DNA from: Citricoccus muralis | GTDB lineage: Bacteria > Actinomycetota > Actinomycetes > Actinomycetales > Micrococcaceae | Assembly: GCF_029637705.1 (NCBI RefSeq) | Contig: NZ_CP121252.1 | Coordinates: 1,488,001-1,552,000, forward strand | Direction of reading: 5' to 3' | Length of the DNA stretch: 64,000 nt | In this document: piece by piece, positions 41,595-46,189 of the stretch | Layout: every line of letters begins with the position of its first letter | Numbering within the stretch: the first letter of the stretch is position 1 | Translations under genes and position numbers: made by a program | The notes under the pieces: generated by a model | Databases searched by the model: none | What the model saw: only the letters and a program-made list of their open reading frames with translations | What the model was told of the DNA's origin: nothing

Positions 41595-41739
41595 GAAGGT
41601 GGCGTTTCCTCAAGGTGGTCGGTCACTGTGACATTCTGGTCGATTCTACTAGTCGGTATCGCGCTTGGGGTGGAATCCATGGTTAAGCCCGGGGCAATGT
41701 GGCAGGACATTCAGTGAGCCACTGGGCATAATGGGCGGT

Positions 41740-42474
41740 ATGCCCGTTTTTTCGCATGACTCAGCCAGGCGAGTCCACCCGAATCGAGACACTGGCCTGC
41801 CCCTGGCGAATCGCGAAGCAGCGCGTGATCTAGAGCAATTGGCCTCCAGAACCAAGACCATCGGCACCACCGGAATGAGGTTCCAGGTGGTCTCTGACAT
41901 GCTGGCCACGTGGGTTTCGGTGATGCACCCGGCCGGGTTGGGAGATGACGTGCCGCTCGTACTGGGCTTGCGTGCCCAGCGACTACCGAGTCAGCCCGAA
42001 GCGGGTCTGGACCCCGGATCCTGGGACGGGCTTGACGTTGTCTTCGATCTGGAGGCGGTGACAGAGCGTACGGCGCGCATGGTTTCCCAAGAATCCGCTT
42101 GGTTTTCGTTCCCGCCGCGTCAGCTACGCGTGACATGGACCGCTATCACGCCTCCGCGCCAGGGATGGGAGCTACGGGCCACCGTCGACGACAATGACAT
42201 CAGTACCGTCGCACGGACTGGAATCGAAGAACTTGCTCAGAGCCTGCCGACCAACCCGGGAGAATCACTCGTGTCACGGGCTCGGGCGCAGGTATGGAAC
42301 CGCATGCTCGGAGATGCCGAGCGAGCCCAATTTCCGGCCGGGGCAGCCATGGGCGCCTACACCCTCGGGTTCCTGGAACCCGGAGGTACGACCACTGTTC
42401 ACCAGACGGGCGTGTGGACTCGGCTATCGAGCCGGCGGGGCACCATTCTGACGCGCCGCGCCGTGGCACTGTAA
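41740..42474 (+). CDS. Conserved hypothetical protein
   Basis: The 244-residue soluble protein has no membrane segment or signal peptide. It is rich in Trp and Arg with an alternating beta-type C-terminal half (FPPRQLRVTWTAITPP; VWTRLSSRRGTIL). I do not recognise a family. ATG 41740 is preceded by GGGCGG at short spacing; a start at 41665 would add a tail without features. It is divergent from tesB and converges with the OsmC-globin gene. Confidence 0.65.
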   Translation: MPVFSHDSARRVHPNRDTGLPLANREAARDLEQLASRTKTIGTTGMRFQVVSDMLATWVSVMHPAGLGDDVPLVLGLRAQRLPSQPEAGLDPGSWDGLDVVFDLEAVTERTARMVSQESAWFSFPPRQLRVTWTAITPPRQGWELRATVDDNDISTVARTGIEELAQSLPTNPGESLVSRARAQVWNRMLGDAERAQFPAGAAMGAYTLGFLEPGGTTTVHQTGVWTRLSSRRGTILTRRAVAL

Positions 42475-42498: not shown

Positions 42499-43536
42499 CT
42501 AGGCGTTGACCATGGCGTGTGCTGCGCGCTCAAGGTAATCCCACAGAGTTTCCTCTTGGAGAGGGGGAAGCTCCAGCGAGTCGACGGCGACGCGCATGTG
42601 CTTGAGCCAGCGGTCTCGTGCGTCGAAATCCACTCGGTACGGCATGTGCCGCATGCGCAACCGGGGATGTCCTCGTTGCTCGGAATAGGTGCCAGGACCG
42701 CCCCAGTATTGTTCCAGAAACAGCAACAAACGCTCTTCTGCCGGACCGAGATCTTCCTCCGGATACATCTCGCGCAGCACCGGATCTTCCGCAACTCCTT
42801 CATAAAACACTCGGCAGAGCTTGGCGAAGGTGGGACGTCCGCCGATCTGCTCATAGAAACTGGTGGGCTTCGACGTCGGCTCCGGGGTCTCATCCTTGGC
42901 GGGAGTACTGGTGCGCTGAAAAGGGGGAGTGTGTGCCGTTCCCGCAGCTATAGGGCGGTTCTCTAGCCCCGTCACCTGGCTGGGGCGGTTAGCCTGACGC
43001 GGGCGCAAGACCGCAATCGGGGCCCCCAACCGTGAACTGAAGTCCGGAAGCTGTTTACCACCACCAGAGAGGTGACGCTGTGGTTCGATGGTCACCGGGA
43101 AATTCACCGACCGCGCTATGAAGCACTGGCGATGGGCTTGTTCGTGCAGGGCATCCAGCTGCTCTTGCGTGACGGAATCGTCGTCAACCCACACTTCCGG
43201 GCGTAGCGTTGCTGCACTGATCTGACCGCCTTCAGCCGTGTGGGTGAGAATGAGCTCGGCACGACAACTCATTTGCGTTACCCGGACCTGAGAGCTCATC
43301 GCGACGAAGAGGTAGGACAGAATGTGGCACTCGGCCAGCGCACCGAGCAGCAACTGCTCCGGGTTCCACCGTCGGTAGTCCCCATGAAAAGCAGTTGCAG
43401 CAGAGCCCAGAATCTCACCTGGGTCCTCGGCCTGTATGACGACGTCCCGGTCAAAATCCCGGGGTCCTGAGGTACCGGTGCCCCGGTTGCCGGTCCATTC
43501 TGCGCGCAGAGAAAAGCGATGTTCCACGCATGACAC
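42499..43536 (-). CDS. OsmC-like domain fused to a group II truncated haemoglobin
   Basis: One open frame of 345 residues encodes two domains. Residues 1-155 are an OsmC/Ohr-type fold with the thiol pair Cys70 (ALAECHILSYLF) and Cys138 (HRQCFIARS), which in this family reduces organic peroxides. After a ~70-residue Pro/Thr-rich linker, residues 226-345 match mycobacterial GlbO: SFYEQIGGRPTF, Tyr245 (B10), Tyr258 (CD1), proximal His297 in HPRLRMRH, and Trp310 (G8). The protein may couple oxygen or NO chemistry to peroxide removal; that is inference. No frameshift is seen at the join. Confidence 0.9.
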   Translation of the reverse strand: MSCVEHRFSLRAEWTGNRGTGTSGPRDFDRDVVIQAEDPGEILGSAATAFHGDYRRWNPEQLLLGALAECHILSYLFVAMSSQVRVTQMSCRAELILTHTAEGGQISAATLRPEVWVDDDSVTQEQLDALHEQAHRQCFIARSVNFPVTIEPQRHLSGGGKQLPDFSSRLGAPIAVLRPRQANRPSQVTGLENRPIAAGTAHTPPFQRTSTPAKDETPEPTSKPTSFYEQIGGRPTFAKLCRVFYEGVAEDPVLREMYPEEDLGPAEERLLLFLEQYWGGPGTYSEQRGHPRLRMRHMPYRVDFDARDRWLKHMRVAVDSLELPPLQEETLWDYLERAAHAMVNA

Positions 43537-43579
43537 TCTACCGCTAGCTACGGATCAAGACATCCGCAGCCAGCGGCGA

Positions 43580-46189
43580 TCAGGACCGCCGAGCGTTGAG
43601 CGCCCGGTGTAGATCATCGGTGGCCTCCAACAGCACCCGACGCAGTCCAGCGAACTCGGTAGCTTCCTGTGCGGCCTCAGCAGCCTGGATCGTCTCGGTA
43701 GTCACCGACCAACTGGGAAAGAGCCCGACGGCTGCCGTCTCGGCCATCTCATGTGAACGTGAAGCCCATAGCCGATCGATTTCCGCGAAGTAGGCGTCGG
43801 CGTAGGGGTGCAAGAGAGCCTGATCGTGAACTCGGTTGAACCCGAGGACGACGCTGCGTTGGGTGGAGTTCGATAGCTCTCCGGCGACGATCTGATCCCA
43901 TGCCTGCTGCTTGGCCTCGGCGGTCGGAACGGCCGCCCGTGCTTTGGCTGCGGCGAGAGCACCGGTAGCGGTGTCGTCCTTGCTCAGTGCGTTCTCAATC
44001 TGAGTCTCATCGGCACGACCGCCAGCTACCAAAGACGTCAACAGTTCCCACTTTAGATCTGTGGTCAGGTCCAGGCCGGGAACCTTGTTGACGTCGCCTG
44101 AGTAAAGCACCTGCACAGCATCCAGCTGGTCACCGCGCGCCTGCGCAGCGTAGGCAGTGACGAACTGAAGTTGCTGATCGGAGCCAGCCTCGGCCTCCTG
44201 CGCGAGCGTCCAGAGTCGCTCGGCCACCTCCCGTCGCAGTGACGAAATCTGTTCCTCCGCCGTAAACTGCGATACCGCTGTGGCCAGCTGACGCAGCAAG
44301 GTCTGAACCACTGAGGAATCGGTTACCGAGCCGATATGGCGCAAGACGACATCCACAAACCAGGCAGAGCTGGCCTCCCCGTCACGTGCGGTATCCCAAG
44401 CTGCACCCCAGAGCAGGGTGCGAGGCAGCGACTCCTCGACCGAGGACAGGTCCGCGGCGGCACGCTCCCAGGACTGGTCGTCCAGGCGGATCTTGGCGTA
44501 TGCGAGGTCGTCGTCATTGATGACAATAATTTCGGGTCGCTGGATGCCGGCGGCCTCAGCCACCACGGTCACTTCACCATCGACATCCAGCTCGAAGCGC
44601 TCCTTCCGGACCAGACCAGAATCCGAACCGGGTTCCTGACGATAGAAACCCACCGCGAGCCGATGTGGGCGGAGCACCTGGTCGCCAGGGAATCCTGGCT
44701 CACCCGAAGGCGCAGTCTGGACGATCCGAAGCTCAGTGATGCGACCCTCGGAGTCGGTGTCGACCTCCGTGCGCAGTGCATTCACGCCGGAGGTCTCGAG
44801 CCAGAGCCGGGTCCAGTCCGTCAGATCGCGCCCTGAGGACGACTCGAGTTCAGCCATCAGGTCGGAGAGTTCGGTGTTGGACCAGGCGTGCTTGTCGAAG
44901 TAGGCGCGTACACCGGCCATGAAGTTCTCTTGACCCACCCAGGCCACCAGCTGGCGCAGAACCGAGGCGCCCTTGGCATAGGTGATGCCGTCAAAATTCA
45001 CCAAGACATCGTCGAGGTCACGGATCTCGGCGGTGATGGGATGGGTGCTGGAGAGCTGATCCTGACGGTAGGCCCAGTTCTTCTCCATCGACGAGAACGT
45101 CGTCCAGGCACCGGTGTACTCGGTGTTCTCGGCAGCGGCGAGGGTCGACATGAACTCCGCGAAGGACTCGTTGAGCCACAAGTCGTTCCACCAGCGCATG
45201 GTGACCAGGTCGCCGAACCACATGTGAGCCAGCTCGTGAAGCACCGTGATGGCCCGACGCTCGATCATGGCTTCGGGAACGGTGCCGCGGAATACGTAGT
45301 TCTCCAGGAACGTCACGGCCCCGGCGTTCTCCATGGCGCCGGCATTGAACTCCGGAACGAAGAGTTGGTCGTACTTTTCAAATGGGTAGGGGGTGCCAAA
45401 CTGGGCTTCAAAGAACTCGAAACCCTGTCGAGTCAAGGTGAAGATGTTTTCAGCGTCCAGGTGCTCGAACAGTGAGGCGCGGCAGTAGACACCCAGATCA
45501 ATACGGCGGCCATCGGAACTGGTCAGATCCGAATGCACCGACCGGTAGGGGCCCGCGATCAGGGCGGTGATGTACGAGGAGATCCGCGGGGTCGGGGAGA
45601 ACTCGTAGAGCACTGCAGAGTCCCGATCTGCCACGGAGAAGTTCACATGATCGATTGGAAGCGGGGCGGGAGTCGGCTGGTTGGACACCACGGACCAGTG
45701 CTGAGGGGCAACGACCACAAACTGGAAGGTGGCCTTCAGATCGGGCTGCTCGAAGACGGCGAACATCCGGCGGGAATCCGGGACCTCGAACTGAGTATAG
45801 AGATACGTCTCCTCGTCCACGGGATCGATGAACCGGTGCAGACCCTCACCGGTGTTCATATACACGCCGCGTCCGGCGACGATGAGTTCATTCTCGGCGG
45901 CAAGGGGGCCGACGGTGATGCGGACGCCGTCCGATGCTTCCGAACCTAGCTCCTCGCCGTTAAGAAGGACCGAGGTCACTTCTGAGGAGACAAAATCGAT
46001 GAAGGTGGAGGTTCCAACCGCCTCTTCCGTTGCGGAAAAACGCACGGTGGTGGTGGAACCGAAGGTGTCCTGCGAGCCGGTGAGGTCGAGCTCGACCCGG
46101 TAACTGTCCACCGAGACGGCGGCCGCGCGGGCCGTGGCTTCGTCGCGGGTGATGTTCAGGGCCGATGACGCGGGCTGGGGTGCAGACAC
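43580..46189 (-). CDS. pepN: Aminopeptidase N
   Basis: The 869-residue M1-family zinc peptidase removes N-terminal amino acids from peptides in the cytoplasm. The substrate motif GAMEN is at 284-288, and zinc ligands are HELAH (318-322) with Glu341 in NESF. The N-terminal beta-saddle and the long C-terminal helical domain have the length expected for the actinobacterial PepN. There is no signal peptide. The divergent rpiB gene begins 96 bp away. Confidence 0.95.
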   Translation of the reverse strand: MSAPQPASSALNITRDEATARAAAVSVDSYRVELDLTGSQDTFGSTTTVRFSATEEAVGTSTFIDFVSSEVTSVLLNGEELGSEASDGVRITVGPLAAENELIVAGRGVYMNTGEGLHRFIDPVDEETYLYTQFEVPDSRRMFAVFEQPDLKATFQFVVVAPQHWSVVSNQPTPAPLPIDHVNFSVADRDSAVLYEFSPTPRISSYITALIAGPYRSVHSDLTSSDGRRIDLGVYCRASLFEHLDAENIFTLTRQGFEFFEAQFGTPYPFEKYDQLFVPEFNAGAMENAGAVTFLENYVFRGTVPEAMIERRAITVLHELAHMWFGDLVTMRWWNDLWLNESFAEFMSTLAAAENTEYTGAWTTFSSMEKNWAYRQDQLSSTHPITAEIRDLDDVLVNFDGITYAKGASVLRQLVAWVGQENFMAGVRAYFDKHAWSNTELSDLMAELESSSGRDLTDWTRLWLETSGVNALRTEVDTDSEGRITELRIVQTAPSGEPGFPGDQVLRPHRLAVGFYRQEPGSDSGLVRKERFELDVDGEVTVVAEAAGIQRPEIIVINDDDLAYAKIRLDDQSWERAAADLSSVEESLPRTLLWGAAWDTARDGEASSAWFVDVVLRHIGSVTDSSVVQTLLRQLATAVSQFTAEEQISSLRREVAERLWTLAQEAEAGSDQQLQFVTAYAAQARGDQLDAVQVLYSGDVNKVPGLDLTTDLKWELLTSLVAGGRADETQIENALSKDDTATGALAAAKARAAVPTAEAKQQAWDQIVAGELSNSTQRSVVLGFNRVHDQALLHPYADAYFAEIDRLWASRSHEMAETAAVGLFPSWSVTTETIQAAEAAQEATEFAGLRRVLLEATDDLHRALNARRS

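Follow-up and report, generated by a model that had tools for sequence, protein, structure and literature searches.

Does the minus-strand open reading frame at 42499-43536 of the window (the whole stretch of 64,000 nucleotides of Citricoccus muralis DNA that was analysed) encode a genuine fusion of an OsmC-type peroxidase with a truncated haemoglobin, and what could such a protein do? The frame was open throughout and specified a single protein of 345 amino acids, in which an OsmC domain was followed by a linker of about 73 residues (153-225) and then by a GlbO-type globin. Both domains scored above their Pfam cut-offs (OsmC, residues 56-151, 55 bits against 27.5; Bac_globin, residues 226-344, 114.8 bits against 21), which bears out what the sequence-only reading had proposed, namely a fusion of the two within one frame; its estimate of about 70 residues for the linker was also close. 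The features of the locus were as follows.

42499..43527, minus strand: OsmC-GlbO fusion gene, from the preferred start GTG 43527 (342 aa; the form starting at GTG 43536 has 345 aa)
43081..43527, minus strand: OsmC-type Cys peroxidase domain, residues 4-152 in 345-aa numbering (Pfam OsmC, 1.2e-14, and fold matches)
42964..43050, minus strand: conserved 29-residue linker element LPDFSSRLGAPIAVLRPRQANRPSQVTGL, residues 163-191 (from conservation and dN/dS)
42862..42963, minus strand: variable spacer rich in Pro, Thr, Ser and Glu, from the element to the globin (from conservation and low pLDDT)
42502..42861, minus strand: GlbO-type group II truncated haemoglobin domain, residues 226-345 (Pfam Bac_globin, 3.5e-33; Tyr245, Tyr258, Tyr284, His297 and Trp310)
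43535..43540, minus strand: TAGAGT, a -10-like box whose end lies 7 nt ahead of GTG 43527
43580..46189, minus strand: pepN, aminopeptidase N, the upstream neighbour on the same strand as the fusion (TIGR02412, 982.5 bits)
41665..42474, plus strand: convergent conserved gene downstream of the fusion, family not recognised (no match in Pfam or NCBIfam)

The N-terminal domain belonged to the OsmC/Ohr superfamily by its Pfam score above the gathering threshold, its fold, and the presence of two active-site cysteines, a glutamate and an arginine. A fold search with the AlphaFold2 model matched this part to 2d7v and 1nye. Both cysteines pointed out in the sequence-only reading were recovered (Cys70 and Cys138) and, together with Arg30 and Glu60, were present in 31 of the 32 fused proteins (the window's included), the exception being L086. 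Arg30 was matched by eye to Arg19 of Ohr, which with Glu51 belongs to the active-site residues reported for the Xylella enzyme (PMC5962072). The Pfam family, the two cysteines, the arginine, the glutamate and the fold are shared with the Cys-based peroxidases of this superfamily (E. coli OsmC, 1nye; V. cholerae VCA0330, 2d7v; C. glutamicum Ohr), whereas the window protein is divergent and bears a fused globin. None of the named subfamily cut-offs was reached (TIGR03561 Ohr, 23.3 of 88.85 bits; TIGR03562 OsmC, 27.2 of 85.8 bits; TIGR03563 SACOL1771, the best match, 38.2 of 166.15 bits), and the substrate of the domain is uncertain because it lies far under the cut-off of every matched NCBIfam subfamily. 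Within OsmC/Ohr, the YhfA subfamily is exempted from thiol peroxidase activity in one account (PMC4069020), whose own protein falls outside OsmC/Ohr. A second OsmC-family gene (L151, PF02566) was found in the window's genome.

The C-terminal domain had its closest solved structures in the truncated haemoglobin of T. fusca (2bmm, 1.6e-53), HbO of M. tuberculosis (1ngk, 4.2e-42) and YjbI of B. subtilis (1ux8, 5.2e-19). The similarity to these group II proteins spanned the whole globin domain and the fold search agreed, so that its earlier designation as GlbO-type was upheld. The three residues named with that designation (Tyr245, His297 and Trp310) were present in all 32 fused proteins and aligned with Tyr23, His75 and Trp88 of M. 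tuberculosis HbO in the 1ngk alignment; Tyr258, likewise present in 32 of 32, aligned with HbO Tyr36. We take HbO Tyr23, Tyr36, His75 and Trp88 to be positions B10, CD1, F8 and G8. Tyr284, also found in every fused protein, is equated here with Tyr62 of M. tuberculosis and Tyr63 of YjbI. The window globin thus has the globin fold and haem-pocket residues of GlbO/trHbO (1ngk, 2bmm) and YjbI (1ux8); the chains of those proteins consist of the globin alone, whereas the window globin is C-terminal to OsmC and carries a conserved N-terminal peptide. No further GlbO match was found in the window's genome, and a PF00042 globin was found elsewhere in it, in a 529-aa frame (L152).

Fusion by an assembly or frameshift error, joining two genes that are separate in relatives, would make all of this spurious, and the distribution of the fusion bears directly on it. 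The window's genome consists of one contig of 3.13 Mb with 100% completeness. A family-wide search gave a match in 385 of 395 genomes, and 96 loci (the window and 95 others, covering all 32 genera) were examined; fused-looking genera were oversampled among the 96, so the proportions that follow are no census. The two domains were fused in frame in 32 of these genomes (window included), encoded by separate osmC and glbO genes in 44, and 20 had no OsmC at the fetched locus. All 29 examined genomes of five genera carried the fusion (g1, 1/1; g3, 8/8; g14, 11/11; g16, 1/1; g21, 8/8), as did two of 13 in g12 and one of five in g20; the family-wide search gave no match for a ninth g21 genome, which is 71% complete. 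Auritidibacter ignavus was among the genomes with the fusion, and linker length among the fusions ranged from 19 to 107 residues. The expectation that relatives would encode two genes therefore held for other genera, with 44 of 96 genomes having them separate, but its second half, an indel creating the fusion here, did not: the genome is a single contig and independent genomes carry the same uninterrupted fusion. An artefact was rejected on these grounds, and we regard it as vanishingly improbable.

In the 44 genomes with separate genes, both lay on one strand of the locus with osmC upstream, and the distance from the osmC stop codon to the globin domain varied from 11 nt to about 3.8 kb. Genus g12 was represented by 30 genomes in the family-wide search and 13 at the locus, of which 11 kept the globin without OsmC there. 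Outside g12, OsmC was likewise absent from the fetched locus of nine more genomes, among them L133, which has fewer than 700 bases upstream. No OsmC was found in any of 20 named loci from other actinobacteria (L032-L053, excepting L034 and L036), although L040 and L051 have little or no upstream DNA. A class sample of 296 genomes gave no fusion outside the window among the matches listed, where a split fusion could appear as a globin alone, and the 11 class-sample loci outside the window, each with a flank of at most about 1.5 kb, had no OsmC.

Phylogenies were inferred by quick searches without bootstrap, and their roots serve for drawing only. The tree of neighbouring-gene markers (97 rows, 36 of them with less than half of the columns; L092 dropped for little sequence) grouped g12 with the fused genera to the same side of a branch with an SH-aLRT of 99, and placed the fused g20 locus L123 elsewhere. 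L123 was nearest to unfused g20 relatives in the OsmC, globin and concatenated trees, and this locus (genome G108) therefore represents an independent fusion, with a linker of 19 residues. The trees fit at least two origins of the fusion, which would have arisen once in the main clade and once in g20. A single origin for the main fused clade including g12 is likely from the trees rather than proven, because the marker and concatenated trees disagree on g12, both fused g12 rows standing nearer the unfused group in the concatenated OsmC and globin tree.

Ten of the 11 g12 genomes without OsmC had a single genome-wide match, the globin, and G217 had a second one. In one of the two fused g12 proteins (L086, genome G137), Cys70 was replaced by Ser, Cys138 by Ala and Glu60 by Gln, and Arg30 was lost, with the globin intact. 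OsmC was probably lost in part of g12 after the fusion, in what looks, by these sequences, like decay of the domain followed by its loss. In g20, the osmC stop codons of G071 and G047 were 11 and 15 nt ahead of the globin domain, and their relative L123 was fused.

The linker was not uniform. The sequence-only reading had overlooked within it a 29-residue element that equals the globin in conservation and is under purifying selection. The mean majority-residue fraction, computed on 30 fused proteins (L086 and L123 excluded), was 0.71 for OsmC, 0.41 for the first spacer, 0.79 for the element, 0.41 for the second spacer and 0.78 for the globin. In the same order, dN/dS pooled over 15 within-genus pairs, which share members and are not independent, was 0.157, 0.453, 0.132, 0.320 and 0.095, indicating purifying selection on the OsmC and globin domains as well. 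A profile of the element built from the fused proteins outside g12 matched all 11 OsmC-less g12 globins with at least 31.7 bits, and the element, kept where OsmC is missing, therefore belongs with the globin side. With the same profile, no match reached 5 bits in 20 other actinobacteria; among 53 other unfused family members, six scored 5 bits or more (shuffled sequences, 0.33 on average) and two scored 8 bits or more (shuffled sequences, 0). A strict pattern of the element, chosen post hoc, was found in seven of the 53 (shuffled sequences, 0) and in none of the 20 other actinobacteria. These matches hint weakly at an ancestry of the element outside the fused clade. The independent fusion L123 was devoid of it, and the DNA pattern for RLGAPIA occurred once in the window's genome, which gave no sign of another protein sharing the element. 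The OsmC-less g12 globins bearing the element N-terminally were L081-L085 and L088-L093.

The AlphaFold2 model, built on 10 sequences as a monomer of a presumed dimer (mean pLDDT 68.5, pTM 0.46), gave pLDDT values below 50 for residues 156-221 (342-aa numbering), as well as for parts of OsmC (residues 36-52) and of the globin (residues 286-296), and the tether is predicted to be disordered. The element had no confident placement on either domain in this weak monomer model, with which docking is still compatible. Most likely, the element docks a partner or positions the globin. It is, in our estimation, loosely like encapsulin cargo-loading peptides; such a role was rejected, PF04454 being absent from the window's genome and from 17 sampled genomes (four each of g3, g14, g21 and g12, and one of g16), while it was present in 18 of 100 genomes of the family.

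The reading frame given originally was retained and its start corrected. The conserved N-terminus opened at Val4 of the 345-aa frame, which corresponds to GTG 43527, and a TANNNT box ended 6-7 nt before this GTG in 28 of 28 loci (g1, g3, g14 and g21), against three of 672 other upstream positions. The upstream candidate, GTG 43536, partly overlaps this -10-like box. Because of the conserved position of the box and the conserved N-terminus, the in-frame GTG 43527 (342 aa) is preferred and is probably the true start. The box count left out four fused loci (L086, L087, L116 and L123); by eye, a box at such spacing was not seen in the upstream sequences of L087 and L116. The arrangement suggests a leaderless fusion mRNA with its own promoter.

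What, then, could the protein do? It appears rather probable that it is a natural bifunctional protein detoxifying hydroperoxides or oxidants, with two flexibly tethered catalytic modules. This reading is founded on the fusion itself, on its conservation and history, on the catalytic residues kept (31 of 32 for OsmC, 32 of 32 for the globin) and on purifying selection on both domains; the activities, the dimer, the reductants and the docking role outlined here are inferred. The OsmC domain would reduce organic hydroperoxides through Cys70 and Cys138 with Arg30 and Glu60, and a reductant of the lipoylated or thioredoxin type would regenerate its thiols. The GlbO domain would contribute haem peroxidase activity and O2/NO chemistry. 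OsmC proteins are dimers, and two globins would be held on each OsmC dimer. The modules would be co-located and largely independent, supplied from one promoter at a fixed 1:1 ratio, and the 29-residue peptide of the tether would have come with the globin and may dock a partner.

Studied relatives of both halves are consistent with such activities. Ohr of C. glutamicum, an OsmC relative, is reported to reduce organic hydroperoxides, with lipoylated proteins as its main recycling partners; the mycoredoxin/mycothiol system that was tried did not recycle it (PMC4486171). The globin could possibly remove protein hydroperoxides, as YjbI reportedly does: this group II truncated haemoglobin of B. subtilis is described as peroxidase-like towards protein hydroperoxides, with Tyr63 essential (PMC9536834). 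The same source gives the in vivo electron donor of YjbI as unknown, and the cellular role and reductant of group II truncated haemoglobins as unsettled (PMC9536834). In 44 of the 64 unfused genomes osmC precedes glbO on one strand, which suggests that the two had a role in common before they were fused, and this arrangement, along with fusion on at least two occasions, means that both proteins probably serve the same stress. Joint action is dispensable in some lineages, because OsmC is missing at the locus in 11 of the 13 g12 genomes and its active-site residues are lost in L086.

Against a joint function, the joining of two neighbours on a chromosome can be a nearly neutral event, and the domains may do unrelated work after two adjacent genes were joined by loss of a stop codon. 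The short distances in G071 and G047, next to a fused relative, and the probable later loss of OsmC in g12 agree with such a by-product, whereas the presence of the fusion, with active sites intact, in 29 of 29 examined genomes of g1, g3, g14, g16 and g21, and its two or more origins, do not; we hold it to be unlikely while deserving consideration. Closer coupling than that of two tethered modules can also be envisaged, with OsmC thiols reducing ferric or ferryl haem, or a haem-bound oxidant reaching Cys70, in one coupled enzyme. Both sites are intact within one chain and the physiological electron donor of group II truncated haemoglobins is described as open (PMC9536834), but the linker varies from 19 to 107 residues and has no confident placement in the weak predicted model. 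The sequence-only reading had suggested that haem could pass oxidants or electrons to the peroxidase site, which found no support here; and an obligatory coupling of haem and thiols is contradicted by the separate genes of 44 of the 96 genomes and by the globins lacking a locus OsmC in 11 of 13 g12 genomes. Such a relay is accordingly judged improbable. A further elaboration, in which lipoamide-type electrons would pass to the OsmC thiols and on to the globin haem while the element docks the reductase, in a self-contained redox unit, is doubtful at best; if true, it would provide the electron donor that has so far been missing for a truncated haemoglobin of group II.

A free globin carrying the element could in addition be produced from an internal start within the linker. 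Probable starts of the g12 globins fall just ahead of the element, an in-frame ATG stood between the OsmC end and the element in 15 of 31 fused genes, and in four of 31 a start codon in this interval was preceded by a ribosome-site-like stretch. The window itself, though, offers just two GTG codons, both within the last OsmC strand and lacking such a stretch, and no position was common to the genera, which makes this additional product very improbable, if conceivable in single species. Sensing of O2 or NO by the globin, also raised in the sequence-only reading and here extended to a gating of the OsmC domain, went unsupported. Globin-coupled sensors exist, but those described are 3/3 globins, generally N-terminal (PMC1457004), whereas the window globin is 2/2 and C-terminal, and Pfam shows no output domain; we give this idea hardly any credence. 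The bifunctional detoxifying protein with tethered modules is the reading retained.

Fusions of truncated haemoglobins with enzymes are already known. An antibiotic monooxygenase fusion in Streptomyces avermitilis and fusions with a kinase or a nitrate reductase have been reported (PMC7082302), in which a 2/2 globin is likewise joined to another enzyme; the window protein differs from these multidomain proteins in having an OsmC peroxidase as the partner, placed on the N-terminal side of the globin. Flavohaemoglobin and the globin-coupled sensors are also chimeric, but their globins are 3/3 and generally N-terminal (PMC1457004). No report of OsmC paired with a truncated haemoglobin was found in the literature searched, which did not extend to the main reviews of multidomain truncated haemoglobins; a haloarchaeal genome description was the one paper there to mention OsmC, a globin and fusion together, and no fusion terms were found in the text of PMC4720485. 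The conserved fusion, with separate osmC and glbO genes close together in relatives, connects a truncated haemoglobin of group II with the removal of peroxides, and offers one protein in which this link becomes testable. The linker element, retained without OsmC, is a handle for a search for partner proteins.

The surroundings of the locus were widely shared. Within loci of about 11 kb, genes beyond which were not counted, pepN upstream on the same strand and, downstream, the convergent unrecognised gene and a same-strand tesB occurred together in 57 of 96 loci (26 of the 32 genera), and singly in 61, 89 and 88 of the 96, respectively. Downstream ettA on the opposite strand was present in 70 of 96 loci, and upstream rpiB on the opposite strand in 53. 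Where osmC and glbO were about 1 kb apart, the gap held a mechanosensitive channel gene in L105 (MS_channel Pfam matches), with similar frames in other loci looked at, or alternatively a DNA_alkylation repair gene in L034; DNA_alkylation matches were also obtained in L036, L117, L118, L124, L131, L137 and L140. The channel or alkylation-repair gene interposed in several genera without the fusion suggests that osmC and glbO are part of a wider stress cluster.
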